Origin: Phaeocystidibacter luteus
GTDB lineage: Bacteria > Bacteroidota > Bacteroidia > Flavobacteriales > Schleiferiaceae
Length of the DNA: 64,000 nucleotides
Direction: 5' to 3'
NCBI RefSeq assembly: GCF_008933115.1
Contig: NZ_WBVO01000005.1
Coordinates: 62,001 to 126,000 of the forward strand
Part shown: piece by piece, positions 46,730 through 59,085 of the stretch
Numbering within the stretch: position 1 is the stretch's first letter
Layout of the letters: every line of letters begins with the position of its first letter
Made by a program: the position numbers and the translations under genes
Notes under the pieces: generated by a model
Databases searched by the model: none
What the model saw: only the letters and a program-made list of their open reading frames with translations
What the model was told of the DNA's origin: nothing

Positions 46730-47623
46730 CTAAACCGCCTTTTTCAACACATAAACCAGGCTGCTCATGTTCTTTGAGCTTCTTCCCGCTAAATTGGAGC
46801 GTAATCCGGTCAGAAACGCTTGAATTGGACGCATGGATCCATTCTTGTATTTCTCGCTCAGGAGAGACACATAGAAGGAGTCGAAAGACATATTCTTAAT
46901 CTCTACGATCTCGAAACCATTCTTTGCGGCAAGGTTATTCATGCTCGATTTAGAAAAATGCCAGAGGTGAATGGGCACATCCCATGCGGCCCATTGCGGC
47001 CCATAATGTTTGGCGTCCAAACTTTCGTGGTTGGGAACTGCGATCAACAAGGCGCCATTCTCCTTCAAAATCGTATGAAACTTTTGAAGGTGTTCATTTA
47101 AGTTTGGAAGATGTTCTAATACATGCCACATAGAAATCGCATCAAACTGCGCTGGGCTATCAGACACTTCATCAAACGAACTTAAGGGCTCTATGCCGTG
47201 TTCAGTTTTGGCATTTGCACGTGCCACTTCGCTCACTTCAACGCCTGTTATATTCCAGCCGTTCGTTTTACACTCGTTCAAAAAGTGTCCGGTTCCGCAA
47301 CCCATATCGAGAAGATCGCCTTTACTCGCGTGTTGCTCTACCCATTTCCTTTTATCGCGCACAGCTTTATTTCGTACAATTTGATACGCTCTACTGAACA
47401 ACGACTTCTTGGTGTTGCTGTGTGAGATATAATCTTCGCTCTCGTAGTATCGGCCCAACTGATCATCTGCCGGGCGGGGAGATGTTGCTAGGAATCCACA
47501 ACTATCACATTTCACAATCGTGAAGTCCTCTTGACTCACCATATGATCATTAACGACGCTGTGTTTTGAAAACGAAGTGCCCTCACAAACGGGGCACTTT
47601 TGAATAGAAACTGTATGTTCCAC
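46730..47623 (-). CDS. Class I SAM-dependent methyltransferase with N-terminal zinc ribbon
   Basis: The frame opens at 47695 inside mnmG. The GTG at 47623 (about 297 residues) fits the zinc-ribbon start CPVCEG...KCDSCGF best. The Rossmann SAM motif is LLDMGCGTGHFLNEC, and HVLEHL (motif IV region) follows. Members often act on glycans or small molecules; the substrate is unknown. The GTG lies inside a parS-like site. Confidence 0.8.
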   Translation of the reverse strand: MEHTVSIQKCPVCEGTSFSKHSVVNDHMVSQEDFTIVKCDSCGFLATSPRPADDQLGRYYESEDYISHSNTKKSLFSRAYQIVRNKAVRDKRKWVEQHASKGDLLDMGCGTGHFLNECKTNGWNITGVEVSEVARANAKTEHGIEPLSSFDEVSDSPAQFDAISMWHVLEHLPNLNEHLQKFHTILKENGALLIAVPNHESLDAKHYGPQWAAWDVPIHLWHFSKSSMNNLAAKNGFEIVEIKNMSFDSFYVSLLSEKYKNGSMRPIQAFLTGLRSNLAGRSSKNMSSLVYVLKKAV

Positions 47624-47631
47624 GTGAAACG
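47616..47631. other. parS-like ParB/Spo0J binding site (15 of 16 bases)
   Basis: TGTTCCACGTGAAACG differs from the 16-base parS consensus TGTTNCACGTGAAACA only at the last base. It lies 12 bases past the mnmG stop and covers the putative GTG start of the methyltransferase gene. Confidence 0.8.
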
Positions 47632-49516: not shown

Positions 49517-49532
49517 TGTTCCACGTGAAACT
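49517..49532. other. parS-like ParB/Spo0J binding site (15 of 16 bases)
   Basis: TGTTCCACGTGAAACT matches the parS consensus except at the last base, and shares its first 15 bases with the site at 47616. It fills nearly all of the 18-base gap between the ybeY stop (49533) and the mnmG ATG (49514). Confidence 0.85.
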
Positions 49533-53237: not shown

Positions 53238-55247
53238 GTGCAGACTCGCGCAACACATTTTACGAGCCTGTTATTTATCGCTTTATGGCTGACTTTCAGT
53301 TATTCTGCGATAGGTCAGACCATCAGTTCAAACTATCTCGAGGAGAATAAATTTCTAGATTCTCTCATTTCAGCCGGAGATTATGAAGCGGCAATTGAAC
53401 ATACGCTGACTACACCACCTGATAACTTCCAGTGCAAAATACTCTATGTCTTACAGCGCAATCGCGCCTATTTGCGTCAACATGATTCGCATGACGAAGT
53501 TCAGCGCGAGTGCTTAGAAGCTCACAAGTTACTTCAAGCTAAAGACGACAGCCTTTACAAATACATGGATGCACGGATATTGGAACTGCTCGGGCATTTT
53601 CATTATCAACGTTCCAACTTGTTTATTGGTTTGACCTACCTAGATTCTGCCGCGATTGTATATCAAGATATCGGTGCACATGATAGATCTATTTACAATC
53701 TGAACATGATTGGAACGATCTATTATCTAAACGATGAAAAGGCAAAATCCATACGATACTACAAGCAGGCACTTCATCTGTTTGAAAAATTTCCAACAGA
53801 TTCGAGCTACTACTTCGAAGTGCTTAACGACTTGGGCAATTTATACTTGAGTCTCGAGCAACTGGATAAAGCCGAAGCGTACTACAGAAGTATCTATGAG
53901 AATTCGAGCATAAGCAGATACCCTAAGATCTTAGCAAACACATTTGCAAACCTTGGCAATGTCTCCCAACGAAAGGAGATGAACACTGAAGCCATCTTCT
54001 ATTATCGAAAGGCTCAGGAACAGTTTGAAGCAAATGGAGACAGTTCAAAGCTCGGCCTTATCTATCACAATATGGGTGCGCTCATGGAAGATAGTTCTGC
54101 CAATCGAGCGATGGAATTCTACCTTCAATCGCTTGAAATTAAGAGAGAGGAGGAGGATACAGAAGGAATTATAAATACACTGTTCTCCATCGCTCGACTT
54201 GAATACATCAATGGCAACTACGCGAATGCTGAAAAGAATGCATTTGAAGCGTTGGAGCTGACCAAAGCCACAACTCAACTTGCGCAAAAAGCAGATCTCT
54301 ATAAACTGATTGGCCTCTTAGAATCGAAAAAAAGAAATTGGCAATCCGCCTACGATTACAATCTGAAATACCAGGAAATATCGGACAGCATTCGGCTCAT
54401 TGCTGACCAGGAGAATATTTACCGGTTAGAACAGATTTACGATTTAGAAAGGCAACAGGAAATCATCGACAACTTCGAAGAATCCAGTGAAGCAAACAAG
54501 GCCCGCCTTCGGAAGAGTAAGGTGATAAATTACGCATTGGGAGGCGCTTCCGTCCTACTTATCATCGTACTTGTATTGTTGATGCAAAACTTTCAACAAA
54601 TTCAAAAAACGAAGAATACGCTATACAAGAAGAACTTGGAAGTAACAGCAGCCGAAGCGTTGGTGAACGGACAAGAACAGGAGCGACAAAGACTTGCGCA
54701 TCAGCTTCATGACAAAGTGGGAAACCACATTACGGTTTTGAAGAATCACATCATTGCGAAGGGAACGAATGATGATGAGCTTTTGCGCATTGTTCAAGAA
54801 ATGTCGGCTGAAGTGCGAAACATATCCCAAGATTTGATGCCTCCGGTTTTGGAGCGATTTGGTCTTGCAGATGCATTAGAGGAATTGTGTTCTCGGTATA
54901 GAGATCAGACTGAAGCAACAATCGATTTGAATATTGATCAATCGGAAATGATTCCAATGAACAATGACGATCAGATCAATCTCTACAGGCTTGTTCAGGA
55001 AATCATCCAGGTATCGCTATTTCAATATCGAGCGAATTACTTGTTGATTGAAATGCGTTGGAATGAAGATGGCATTTGGGTTGCTATAGAAGATAATGGT
55101 ACGCGAAGAGTTCGTACTGGAGATGATGAACTTGTCATTCATCCATGGAAGGGAATTGAACACAGAGTACAATTCCTAAAAGGAGAGTTTAAAAGAAGTA
55201 GCCACAACCAAGGCAACGAATACAAAGTATACATACCACGACCTTAA
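53238..55247 (+). CDS. TPR-containing histidine kinase with degenerate ATPase domain
   Basis: The 669-residue protein starts at GTG 53238 with a signal-like N-terminus (to about SYSAIGQ). TPR repeats cover about 90-400, a membrane helix lies at 432-452, and the HisKA_3 motif RLAHQLHDKVGNHITV has the phosphoacceptor at H491. In the ATPase domain the N-box asparagine seems lost (RLVQEIIQVSLFQYRAN), and DNGT is followed by no clear GLG loop, so ATP binding may be impaired. It is followed after 3 bases by its NarL regulator. Confidence 0.85.
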   Translation: MQTRATHFTSLLFIALWLTFSYSAIGQTISSNYLEENKFLDSLISAGDYEAAIEHTLTTPPDNFQCKILYVLQRNRAYLRQHDSHDEVQRECLEAHKLLQAKDDSLYKYMDARILELLGHFHYQRSNLFIGLTYLDSAAIVYQDIGAHDRSIYNLNMIGTIYYLNDEKAKSIRYYKQALHLFEKFPTDSSYYFEVLNDLGNLYLSLEQLDKAEAYYRSIYENSSISRYPKILANTFANLGNVSQRKEMNTEAIFYYRKAQEQFEANGDSSKLGLIYHNMGALMEDSSANRAMEFYLQSLEIKREEEDTEGIINTLFSIARLEYINGNYANAEKNAFEALELTKATTQLAQKADLYKLIGLLESKKRNWQSAYDYNLKYQEISDSIRLIADQENIYRLEQIYDLERQQEIIDNFEESSEANKARLRKSKVINYALGGASVLLIIVLVLLMQNFQQIQKTKNTLYKKNLEVTAAEALVNGQEQERQRLAHQLHDKVGNHITVLKNHIIAKGTNDDELLRIVQEMSAEVRNISQDLMPPVLERFGLADALEELCSRYRDQTEATIDLNIDQSEMIPMNNDDQINLYRLVQEIIQVSLFQYRANYLLIEMRWNEDGIWVAIEDNGTRRVRTGDDELVIHPWKGIEHRVQFLKGEFKRSSHNQGNEYKVYIPRP

Positions 55248-55874: not shown

Positions 55875-56710
55875 GAATTCTGGCGTTTCTATCCATTCTA
55901 CTTTTCGCCGCTTGTGGTGTGAAATACACGGAATCCACCTTCCTCTCAGAAGAAGAACAAATGGGTTATGAATGCGTAATTCTCACACCTAAAAAACCTG
56001 TTGGAACCTTTTTATATCTATCAGATAGCAGCGAATTTCAGTCCTATCCAACGGCTCTACAAAAGGAGATGATCAAGGATGGATATCGCGTGGTAATCCC
56101 TACACGTTGGGGAAACAACGGACGCTCACGAGCGAAGTTTGATACGTACAACAACAGACTCAACGGCGTTACAAACAGTTTGACTCAAATAGCTAGTGAG
56201 ATTGATACGCTTGGAAACCTCATCGTATTCGCGGATGGATTTTACGCTCCTATCGCAATACGTACAGCGAGAGACTACCGTGCAAGTCAGCTTTGGATGG
56301 TCGAACCCCTTTCTAATCCTCTGTATTCCATTGTTATTTCTCAGGTGAATAGCTCGGCAGACACATCAAGTATTAGTGAGCTTTGGGGATTGAGCAGTGA
56401 CGTTGAATTTCAAGAACTTTCGGCTTCGATGGATCTTGATAATCGTGTACCCGAGCGGTTTTTTGGTCCACACTACTCCGCATTCATTCGAAGTTATTGG
56501 ACCTTAGATGTTGTGAATACCGCGATGTACAATGTGGATAGCAGTACTCGAATTATGACGGCTTTTCATTCCGACTATACGTTTCATTCCTCCGAGAATG
56601 AGACCTACTGGGTAGAAAATGAAAAAGCGGAAGTTTTGCAACTCCCGCTCGAAGTCGATACGGTTCCGTATCGTTTATCTGTAGTTGAAAGTGTATTCCT
56701 AGAGAATTAG
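55871..56710 (+). CDS. Lipoprotein with alpha/beta-hydrolase-like layout
   Basis: The ATG at 55871 overlaps the regulator stop (ATGA) and gives 279 residues with lipobox LFAAC and C15. The body resembles an alpha/beta hydrolase (VGTFLYLSDSSEF, GYRVVIPTRWGNNGRS, LIVFADGFYAPIAIRTA), but the nucleophile elbow reads FADGFYAP and lacks the Gly-x-Ser-x-Gly, so catalysis is doubtful. It is convergent with rpiB (4-base overlap). Function unknown. Confidence 0.7.
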   Translation: MRILAFLSILLFAACGVKYTESTFLSEEEQMGYECVILTPKKPVGTFLYLSDSSEFQSYPTALQKEMIKDGYRVVIPTRWGNNGRSRAKFDTYNNRLNGVTNSLTQIASEIDTLGNLIVFADGFYAPIAIRTARDYRASQLWMVEPLSNPLYSIVISQVNSSADTSSISELWGLSSDVEFQELSASMDLDNRVPERFFGPHYSAFIRSYWTLDVVNTAMYNVDSSTRIMTAFHSDYTFHSSENETYWVENEKAEVLQLPLEVDTVPYRLSVVESVFLEN

Positions 56711-57135
56711 CAAGGAATCTTACCTACGCGTCTATCGTGACGACCACCTTCAAACTTCTCATTTAAAAACGTATCCACACACTCTAAGGCTAGATTTTGA
56801 TCGATGAATCTGGCAGGTAGTGCGAGGACATTAGCATCGTTATGTTGACGTGCAAGAGCTGCTAGTTCGGTATTCCAGCATAGCGCAGAACGAATTCCTG
56901 CATGCTTATTAACCGTCATATTAATTCCATTTCCACTTCCGCAGATCACAATACCGAAATCGGCTTTACCTTCTTCAACATCGTTTGCTACGGGGTGACC
57001 AAAATCAGGATAATCAACACTGTCGTCATTATCTGTACCGTGATTTGTAACGGTATGACCTTCAGCCTCTAGCTTTTTGATGATGGCATTCTTGTAATCC
57101 GTTCCGGCGTGATCGTTACCAATGGAAATGTTCAT
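56707..57135 (-). CDS. rpiB: Ribose 5-phosphate isomerase B
   Basis: The 142-residue protein has the RpiB active-site residues D8, H9 (GNDHAG), C65 (ICGSGNGINM) and H98 (ARQHNDANVL). It interconverts ribose- and ribulose-5-phosphate in the pentose phosphate pathway. Its promoter side is the candidate oriC region. Confidence 0.95.
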   Translation of the reverse strand: MNISIGNDHAGTDYKNAIIKKLEAEGHTVTNHGTDNDDSVDYPDFGHPVANDVEEGKADFGIVICGSGNGINMTVNKHAGIRSALCWNTELAALARQHNDANVLALPARFIDQNLALECVDTFLNEKFEGGRHDRRVGKIPC

Positions 57136-57189
57136 GATTCAAAATTTTTACAAAGGTCTGAAAATCCTACCAGTTGAAAACCGATGTCG

Positions 57190-57600
57190 TTATCAACATA
57201 CGCTGTGTATATGTGTTAGTAACTGTGGAAAAGAGAACGAAAACTTTTCCTTGACTTTTCAAAGAAAAAACGTCAAATGGTGAACTCGATTCACAAATGC
57301 AAGAGTTGGGAACGTGTAGTTTTGAGGAATTCATCAACCATCTCTTTGAGGTTATTCACCGTAATTAAGAGTGAAAGATTTCAAAGTTCCCCTTAACTTC
57401 ACGTTATTCACAAATGTGGATACAGAATTATAGTTGACTGATAATCAAACCAAGAATACAGAACTACACGTTCATAAGCTGTGAATAAACTCAGATCACT
57501 TACAAATACAAGCCTTGATTCCGAAAGTTATACCGGGAATCAACAGCCTATTATCATTAGTATATTCTCTTTTATAAAAGCATATATATTAATACTACTA
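57190..57600. other. Candidate chromosome replication origin (oriC): DnaA-box cluster plus AT-rich tract
   Basis: The 345-base gap between rpiB and the gene at 57481 carries seven DnaA boxes matching TTATNCACA: exact at 57404-57412 (plus) and 57480-57488 (minus), and with one mismatch at 57190-57198 (plus), 57204-57212 (minus), 57224-57232 (minus), 57352-57360 (plus) and 57415-57423 (minus). A weaker eighth lies at 57287-57295. Bases 57548-57600 are about 83% A+T and could unwind. Genes diverge from this point, and two parS sites lie 8-10 kb away. Confidence 0.8.
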
Positions 57601-59085
57601 TGGGTTGTTAACATTCCAGCTTACGGACAAGAGACCGACAGTTCAGAGTTTGTTCAATACACGTATCCAAACGGACAAGTATCCAGCGAAGGATATTTAG
57701 AAGATGGTCAGCCCGAAGGTTATTGGAAAGCATATTATCCTTCTGGTATTCTCAAATCCGAAGGCAACAGAGTAAATCACTTTTTGGATGGGCCTTGGAA
57801 ATTTTACAATGAGGAAGGTCAGCTCGAAACAGTGATCCGCTATACAGATGGACAAAAGAACGGCATTCGAGAAACCTGGCGCGATTCGGTTTTAGTGGCT
57901 GAAGAGCCCTATGTGAACAACAAGCAGCAAGGGCTTTCAAAGTATTTCTATCCGGATGGAAAAATAAAAAAGTGGATACCCTTTGAAAGAGGTCGTGAAC
58001 AGGGCCGCGGATTTGAATTTGATGAAGACGGAAAGGTCATAGCCTTACTCACCTACAAATCCGGAGTACTCACACAAAATCAAGAAATCAACAGAACGAA
58101 CCGCTTAGGCCTTAAAAGGGGTGTATGGATGGAATTCCACAGGAATATGAACATACGCGTTGAGGGGACCTATAAAGACGATTTAAAGCACGGTTTCTGG
58201 AAGTACTACCAACCCAACGGCAATTTAATTCGGGTTGAGCGATGGATCATGGGTGTTCTTCAGGAGGAAGATCAAGAAACAGCAAAGGTTGAAATACGCA
58301 GAGAGATTCATGAATCTACCGGTGCACTTAAATCGAAAGGTGCTTATCAGAACGGTTTAAAAGAGGGCGTTCACCAACAATTTGATGAAGATGGAAATCC
58401 CATCGGTGCTCAGCTTTACCATGAAGATATTCTACTCGCTGAAGGAATGTATGACGAGCGTGGGCGAAAGCAGGGCGAATGGAAATTCTATTATCCTGAT
58501 GGCACGCTAAAAGCCATTGGCGATTATGTAGATGATTATAAGAACAATCAATGGAAATACTACTTCCAAGACAGCACGCTTGAACAAGTAGGCCGATATA
58601 TTTTGGATGCTCCAGATGGCGAATGGAACTGGTATTTCAATGGTGGAGAATTGAGAAAACGTCAGATGTTCGTTGATGGACTTGCCAGCGGAGAATTCAT
58701 AGAGTACAATGATTCTAATGAAGTCATTGCAGAAGGTCAGTTTATCGATGGACTCCGCACAGGTATTTGGAAATACTATGTACACAACGTGTTAGAAACG
58801 GGTGAGTTTGTTCAGGATGCTCGAGAAGGTAGGTGGACGATCACATGGACGGACATTGATCAACTTCGAGAAGAAGGCAGTTGGTCAAATGGACTCAAAG
58901 AAGGAACACACGTAATGTATTACCCGAATGGGAATATTAGAAGAAGGGGTCGTTTTGTAGGTGGACAAAAGGATGGAACGTGGGAGTACTTTGCGGAAAA
59001 CGGAGCTCGAATCGTTACCGTGACCTATGAAATGGGAGAAGAAGTTGAATACAACGGACGAGACCTTGGCGATGGAAGAAGATAA
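57481..59085 (+). CDS. YwqK/MORN-repeat protein
   Basis: The 534-residue protein starts at GTG 57481, with a long N-terminus before a hydrophobic signal (FIKAYILILLWVVNIPAYGQ). The mature part is a run of about 16 repeats of the form YPNGxLxxEGxYxDGxxxGxWKxY (for example YPSGILKSEGN and YFNGGELRKRQMFVDGLASG), as in MORN/YwqK-family proteins, which are often exported or linked to polymorphic-toxin immunity. No toxin domain is seen here. The true start is uncertain, because the GTG overlaps a DnaA box. Confidence 0.8.
   Translation: MNKLRSLTNTSLDSESYTGNQQPIIISIFSFIKAYILILLWVVNIPAYGQETDSSEFVQYTYPNGQVSSEGYLEDGQPEGYWKAYYPSGILKSEGNRVNHFLDGPWKFYNEEGQLETVIRYTDGQKNGIRETWRDSVLVAEEPYVNNKQQGLSKYFYPDGKIKKWIPFERGREQGRGFEFDEDGKVIALLTYKSGVLTQNQEINRTNRLGLKRGVWMEFHRNMNIRVEGTYKDDLKHGFWKYYQPNGNLIRVERWIMGVLQEEDQETAKVEIRREIHESTGALKSKGAYQNGLKEGVHQQFDEDGNPIGAQLYHEDILLAEGMYDERGRKQGEWKFYYPDGTLKAIGDYVDDYKNNQWKYYFQDSTLEQVGRYILDAPDGEWNWYFNGGELRKRQMFVDGLASGEFIEYNDSNEVIAEGQFIDGLRTGIWKYYVHNVLETGEFVQDAREGRWTITWTDIDQLREEGSWSNGLKEGTHVMYYPNGNIRRRGRFVGGQKDGTWEYFAENGARIVTVTYEMGEEVEYNGRDLGDGRR

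Follow-up and report, generated by a model that had tools for sequence, protein, structure and literature searches.

Given that the window, the 64,000-nucleotide stretch of the Phaeocystidibacter luteus genome analysed here, contains a dense group of DnaA boxes at a gene boundary and no dnaA gene, we wondered where replication of this chromosome starts. The first-pass annotation had proposed a candidate oriC apart from dnaA at this boundary, and the GC skew, a conserved element and the location of dnaA on another contig, C1, all support that proposal. Judged from sequence, we consider it very probable (about 95%) that the boundary between rpiB and a MORN-repeat protein gene, at about 57190-57600, is the chromosomal origin oriC, because a box cluster beyond chance and a conserved 40-bp element are found there, the skew of relatives switches at the same boundary and the genome encodes a full-length DnaA. 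An oriC far from dnaA is common in Bacteroidetes, as described for Prevotella intermedia OMA14 (PMC4755523), so the headline of the earlier proposal is not new in itself. In Mariniflexile litorale, dnaA and the skew likewise disagree (PMC11278836). In both species the origin predicted by Ori-Finder lies at a GC-skew switch away from dnaA, as it does here; unlike here, neither an rpiB neighbour nor an unwinding element is named in the passages of those descriptions that treat the origin.

A DnaA-box cluster between rpiB and a MORN-repeat gene

The features of the locus and its surroundings are as follows.

47616..47631 (+): parS-like site, two mismatches to the 16-mer
49517..49532 (+): parS-like site, two mismatches to the 16-mer
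56707..57135 (-): rpiB, ribose 5-phosphate isomerase B (PF02502, E=1.2e-58), the conserved left neighbour
57190(+), 57204(-), 57224(-), 57352(+), 57404(+, exact), 57415(-), 57480(-, exact): TTATNCACA-like sites with at most one mismatch
57190..57232: rpiB-proximal DnaA-box array, consisting of TTATCAACA (+, 57190) and three minus-strand boxes at 10-bp steps, TGTGTATAT at 57204, TGTTAGTAA at 57214 (two mismatches) and TGTGGAAAA at 57224
57352..57360 (+): DnaA box TTATTCACC; L004 has a box at the corresponding position
57404..57423: divergent DnaA-box pair TTATTCACA-AA-TGTGGATAC, a layout shared with L003, L010 and L024
57480..57488 (-): exact DnaA box TTATTCACA
57481..59085 (+): MORN-repeat protein gene (PF07661), a right neighbour retained across several genera, with its listed GTG start overlapping the exact box that begins at 57480
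57525..57564 (+): BUS-like element of 40 bp, with weak tandem DnaA boxes TTATACCGG and GAATCAACA followed by a DnaA-trio-like ladder of 3-bp step
57565..57600: A+T tract of 36 bp, 83% A+T

Clustered DnaA boxes, one of the marks of an oriC, are present at 57190-57488, where seven sites within one mismatch of TTATNCACA, two of them exact, fall in 299 bases; our recount returned every position given earlier, and the boundary is divergent as described, with rpiB on the minus strand and the MORN-repeat gene on the plus strand. The whole window contains 52 such sites against 52.65 expected. Because the motif shows no excess over chance at that scale, the clustering alone is special. Dinucleotide shuffles of the window (n=40) gave at most 4 sites per 299 bases, and when 57136-57489 was shuffled 2000 times the mean was 0.57 sites, with at least seven reached in 0 of 2000. 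The claim that the cluster exceeds chance thus stands, with 0.57 in place of the roughly 0.3 sites first expected. Along contig C23 (197 kb, 137 sites), which carries the window, the cluster is the sole place with at least four sites in 299 bases; one other place on C23 (L032) has 4 sites in about 350 bases. These scans, at up to one mismatch, covered the window, C23, the 20 kb around dnaA and selected places on C1 and C12. Triple boxes at 10-bp steps recur in two relatives of the same genus (L003, L004) and in one from another family (L024), and the L004 counterpart of the divergent pair has one of its two boxes within one mismatch.

The A+T-rich region that accompanies the boxes of an origin is also found, and the 83% A+T quoted for it before agrees with our count over 57565-57600; A+T over 57540-57600 is 79%. 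This tract is probably the continuation of a predicted unwinding region, whose conserved part at 57525-57564 lies inside the interval of the first-pass annotation. The boxes and the tract had been listed there, and this element had not been singled out. The layout is similar to that of E. coli, where an oriC with several boxes, close to gidA/mnmG and away from dnaA, has an A+T-rich unwinding region next to it. Sequence comparison with E. coli covered the DnaA proteins.

If the largest group of boxes marked the origin wherever it lay, contig C12 would compete with the rpiB-MORN boundary. There, at G000:C12:43877-44317 (L182), a G+C-rich tandem repeat of 55 bp in 9.1 copies carries one box-like word per 55 bp, four exact and five with one mismatch, so that by count it holds more sites (nine in about 450 bp) than the boundary does. 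By number of sites the array is a rival, but the words lie in a tandem repeat, and the model of the element matches this genome at E <= 0.01 on C23 only. The words are probably chance matches amplified by repetition, and we attach next to no probability to an origin at this array; the repeat could serve as a DnaA titrator. Two exact-box pairs on C1, at 172554/172618 and 209625/209816, have three and two sites, respectively, in about 1 kb.

GC skew and the position of dnaA

A minimum of cumulative GC skew at the cluster had been named as a check on an origin here. For P. luteus itself the skew was computed on C23, and its lowest point is at window position 53970, close to the cluster and 3.2 kb away from it, in a shallow trough that extends to about 58 kb. 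The right side is noisy, climbing from -2193 to -1241, returning to -1733 and ending at -1594. This outcome favours an origin at the boundary, and the offset of the minimum, the shallow trough and the noise count against it. In relatives, where skew was taken over stretches no longer than 20 kb, the sign switches from minus to plus at the same boundary. The switch is clear in G029, where 11/11 stretches before the locus are negative and 9/9 after it positive, in G005 (9/9 negative on one side, 11/11 positive on the other) and in G001, of the same genus, where 12/12 stretches of contig C2 through the locus are negative (the last at -0.006) and the following 6/6 positive. G049, from another family, shows the same switch more weakly, with 1 of 10 stretches wrong-signed on each side. 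G125 (4 stretches) and G168 (14 stretches) have a local flip at the locus, G168 being noisy elsewhere. The skew of G122 is weak and mixed with hardly any switch at the locus, which, like the noise in G168, also counts against the assignment, and that of G054, a member of family f6 without an element match that was intended as a negative control, is too noisy to place an origin.

In this genome, dnaA has a single match, on contig C1 near 406 kb, in line with the earlier statement that the window lacks dnaA. The gene is the default place to look for an origin, as in many bacteria. Eleven relatives with an element match consist of a single contig, and in five of them (G029, G122, G108, G147, G160) the genome record begins within 1.5 kb of dnaA, which may be convention. 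The 20 kb around dnaA contain scattered boxes only, at most 2 TTATNCACA-like sites per 350 bp, so the denser cluster that might have been met there is absent; nor does this region contain the element, its best score being 6.6 bits. Across the same 11 relatives, dnaA lies 0.73-1.89 Mb from the element match, or 0.38-0.96 of half a chromosome (5 of the 11 lengths are rounded, and the matches of G160 and G183 are not just upstream of rpiB). In G029, G005 and G049, no more than about 0.4 Mb separates dnaA from the opposite skew switch, which, as judged by sampled skew, puts the gene near the replication terminus. An origin at dnaA on C1 is accordingly a reading to which we give almost no credence. 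Some genome records have their first base at dnaA, a gene that can be situated close to the terminus. Besides its full-length dnaA, G122 has a second match to the DnaA C-terminal domain, in a 134-aa open frame at G122:C1:1536068-1536283.

The 40-bp element and its possible reading by DnaA

Close inspection of the sequences upstream of rpiB revealed a 40-bp motif in 26 of 30 regions, that of this genome included; 60 genomes were searched for rpiB, 53 gave a match, and the regions, mostly 1.5 kb upstream of rpiB, come from the 30 best-scoring of these. Since the motif was seeded by eye from 8 of these 30 regions before iteration, 26/30 is not an unbiased rate. In a leave-one-out procedure, 26/26 copies were recovered at the same place. 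A matrix made without the genus scored 37.5 bits at 57525-57564, against 10.4 for the next best place on C23 and the low score near dnaA given above. The model R1, built from the 26 sequences, has its sole match at E <= 0.01 in this genome here (E = 3.6e-6), at a copy that was itself used for training.

The element resembles, by its sequence, a DnaA-box plus DnaA-trio unwinding module. A periodic ladder follows the tandem boxes: with the frame as assigned here, starting at column 24 of A1, A recurs at 3-bp steps on the box strand, occupying 120 of 130 cells over the 26 sequences. Of 13 copies outside the training set, 12 show A throughout the five ladder positions, but apart from L196 these 13 had been picked out with that same model. 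On the trio strand the assigned frame gives T as the third base in 120/130 and, as the central base, A in 74/130 and G in 35/130. As in the BUS of B. subtilis, two tandem boxes precede a ladder of 3-bp step and the trio strand is opposite the boxes. In the assigned frame the ladder begins 11 bp beyond the first box and 2 bp beyond the second, where the published spacing peaks at 10-13 bp from the better box (PMC8287927, PMC10721633). Unlike in the B. subtilis BUS, the boxes here are weak, the third base T is the best kept and the origin would not be at dnaA.

The strict published rule asks for at least three consecutive 3'-NAN-5' trios and, no more than 16 bp from them, a DnaA box that differs from TTATCCACA at two positions at most (PMC8287927). 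In the window the two boxes have 4 and 3 mismatches to TTATCCACA, so this copy fails the rule, another point against the assignment; the element appears BUS-like by layout, yet is not classed as a BUS by this rule. The better box has at most two mismatches in 14 of the 26 sequences, at least three consecutive trios occur in 17 of them in some phase (11 in the assigned frame), and 10/26 pass the complete rule. The BUS survey predicted the module in 1755 of 2070 species, and its main text names neither Bacteroidetes, Flavobacteria nor rpiB (PMC8287927); its tree and supplements may include Bacteroidetes. DoriC may already list the locus in relatives. Among the titles and abstract openings listed by literature searches outside subscription journals, supplements and DoriC, none described the neighbourhood of rpiB or trios in Bacteroidota.

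Clusters of DnaA boxes that are not origins occur in other bacteria. A DnaA-titrating or regulatory site (like datA or DARS, or controlling rpiB and the MORN gene) would suit such precedents as well as the position at a divergent gene boundary, but the skew changes sign here in several genomes, and the boxes are accompanied by a conserved unwinding-type ladder and an A+T tract, so that we hold this explanation highly improbable. If the boundary is oriC, we infer that DnaA supplied from its distant gene would bind the box array and nucleate where the 57525-57564 element has its tandem boxes, at its left end. From there a filament would grow over the 3-bp-step ladder, following the strand opposite to that of the boxes. 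The A+T-rich tract would then open towards the MORN gene, allowing helicase loading, and forks would depart both ways.

The DnaA that would act here is full-length at 477 aa and has the domains usual for this protein. In B. subtilis, DnaA bound to tandem boxes spreads from them onto trios of the type 3'-GAT-5' (PMC10721633, PMC8287927). A pocket of Arg202, Glu228 and Asn187 captures the first two trio bases, Arg202 and Glu228 holding the first; the third points away from the pocket, with Ile190 and Ile193 on its flanks and a hydrogen bond from Asn196 (PMC10721633); changing the central A to G slows opening and growth (PMC10721633, PMC8287927). Aligned to 8btg_A, with positions counted by hand, the DnaA of this genome carries Gln at 187 and Val at both 202 and 228, with Glu183, Ile190, Ile193 and Asn196 unchanged. 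Two more DnaAs, from another genus and another family (L041, L129), have Gln at 187, Leu or Ile at 202 and Ala or Val at 228, and keep Asn196 with Val for Ile at 190 (L041) or 193 (L129). The E. coli protein has Gln, Lys and Glu at 187, 202 and 228, and in those of T. maritima and A. aeolicus the Arg and Glu at 202/228 are retained. Since Gln187 also occurs in E. coli, it is not special; what appears distinctive among the six DnaAs is the loss of the 202/228 pair in the three compared here.

A ladder whose third base T is better kept than its central A, together with the absence of Arg202 and Glu228 from three DnaAs, is possibly new. The joint change in protein and DNA is a correlation only, seen in three related proteins and dependent on the frame of the ladder. 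Tentatively, this part of Bacteroidota could use a shifted DnaA-trio code, in which the third base T is anchored and the two captured bases are relaxed, a possibility we regard as rather doubtful. It would match Gln in place of Asn187 and small or aliphatic residues in place of Arg202 and Glu228, with Asn196 and Ile or Val at 190 and 193 kept. If true, strand opening here would read the origin differently from B. subtilis. With this locus, the base-reading model of origin opening can be put to the test beyond the species for which it was developed.

Gene neighbourhood of the element in relatives

At E <= 0.01, the model from 26 sequences has matches in 58 of the 196 genomes searched in the order. 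The place of rpiB is listed for 52 of them, and in 45 of these, 27 being genomes outside the training set, the match and rpiB are divergent, with the match 273-750 bp upstream. The other seven are not just upstream: five are on another contig, that of G183 is 2.1 kb from rpiB, and that of G160 is 4.1 kb away on the same strand. Outside the count of 52 are G013, G066 and G131, which have no rpiB match, and G100, G105 and G137, where the place of rpiB is not among the matches listed; a second, weak match of G193 was omitted. The remaining 138 of 196 genomes have no model match under strict filters by which weak matches are lost, which counts against the assignment, as do the seven matches not just upstream of rpiB; these 138 include all sampled genomes of family f16 (0.3-0.6 Mb) and those of family f6 except G140. 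A class-wide search with the model matched 16 of 198 genomes, 12 of them outside the order. Four of the 12 (G215, G272, G275, G338) have the element divergent from rpiB, at 305-497 bp upstream of the gene; in the other eight it is on a contig other than that of rpiB (seven) or about 70 kb away (G218). The class-wide copies L192 and L194 look weak.

On the opposite side, tblastn placed the MORN gene beside the element in G001, G005, G029, G049, G125, L190 and L196, and did not find it there in G122 or G168. A search with the MORN protein gave eight distant loci, seven of which were scanned (all but L201); only L196, a Bacteroidota MAG found in this way, has the element and rpiB, with rpiB, element and MORN gene in the same order as here. 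The landmark of rpiB next to oriC, often with the MORN gene opposite, combined with the 40-bp core, offers a precise marker for placing the origin in many genomes of the order, drafts included. In three species of the genus (L002, L003, L004), a similar GTG start precedes a MORN frame that stays open across the predicted unwinding element; either the element would be coding, or the true MORN start would lie downstream. The rpiB match at G004:C95:9193-9612 has one internal TAA stop.

ParB sites had been reported 8-10 kb from the cluster. Two parS-like sites do lie 7.7-9.6 kb away, and since at least two such matches also arose in 4 of 100 shuffles, the pair is only suggestive by sequence alone. 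Among the stretches of relatives scanned next to the locus, parS-like words are present in L052, L113, L171 and L180, and absent from the 13 other non-window stretches; with so few relatives having them, nearness to parS is a weak supporting sign. The text on M. litorale sets oriC by mnmG and ter by leuB, the reverse of its figure legend (PMC11278836). In P. luteus, mnmG is 8-10 kb from the candidate origin on the rpiB side; in G029, G125 and G168 it is 17-19 kb away, on the side opposite rpiB. In G168, seven parS-like sites lie within 2.5 kb (L171, 16307-18752) around ybeY/mnmG, about 16-19 kb from the element.
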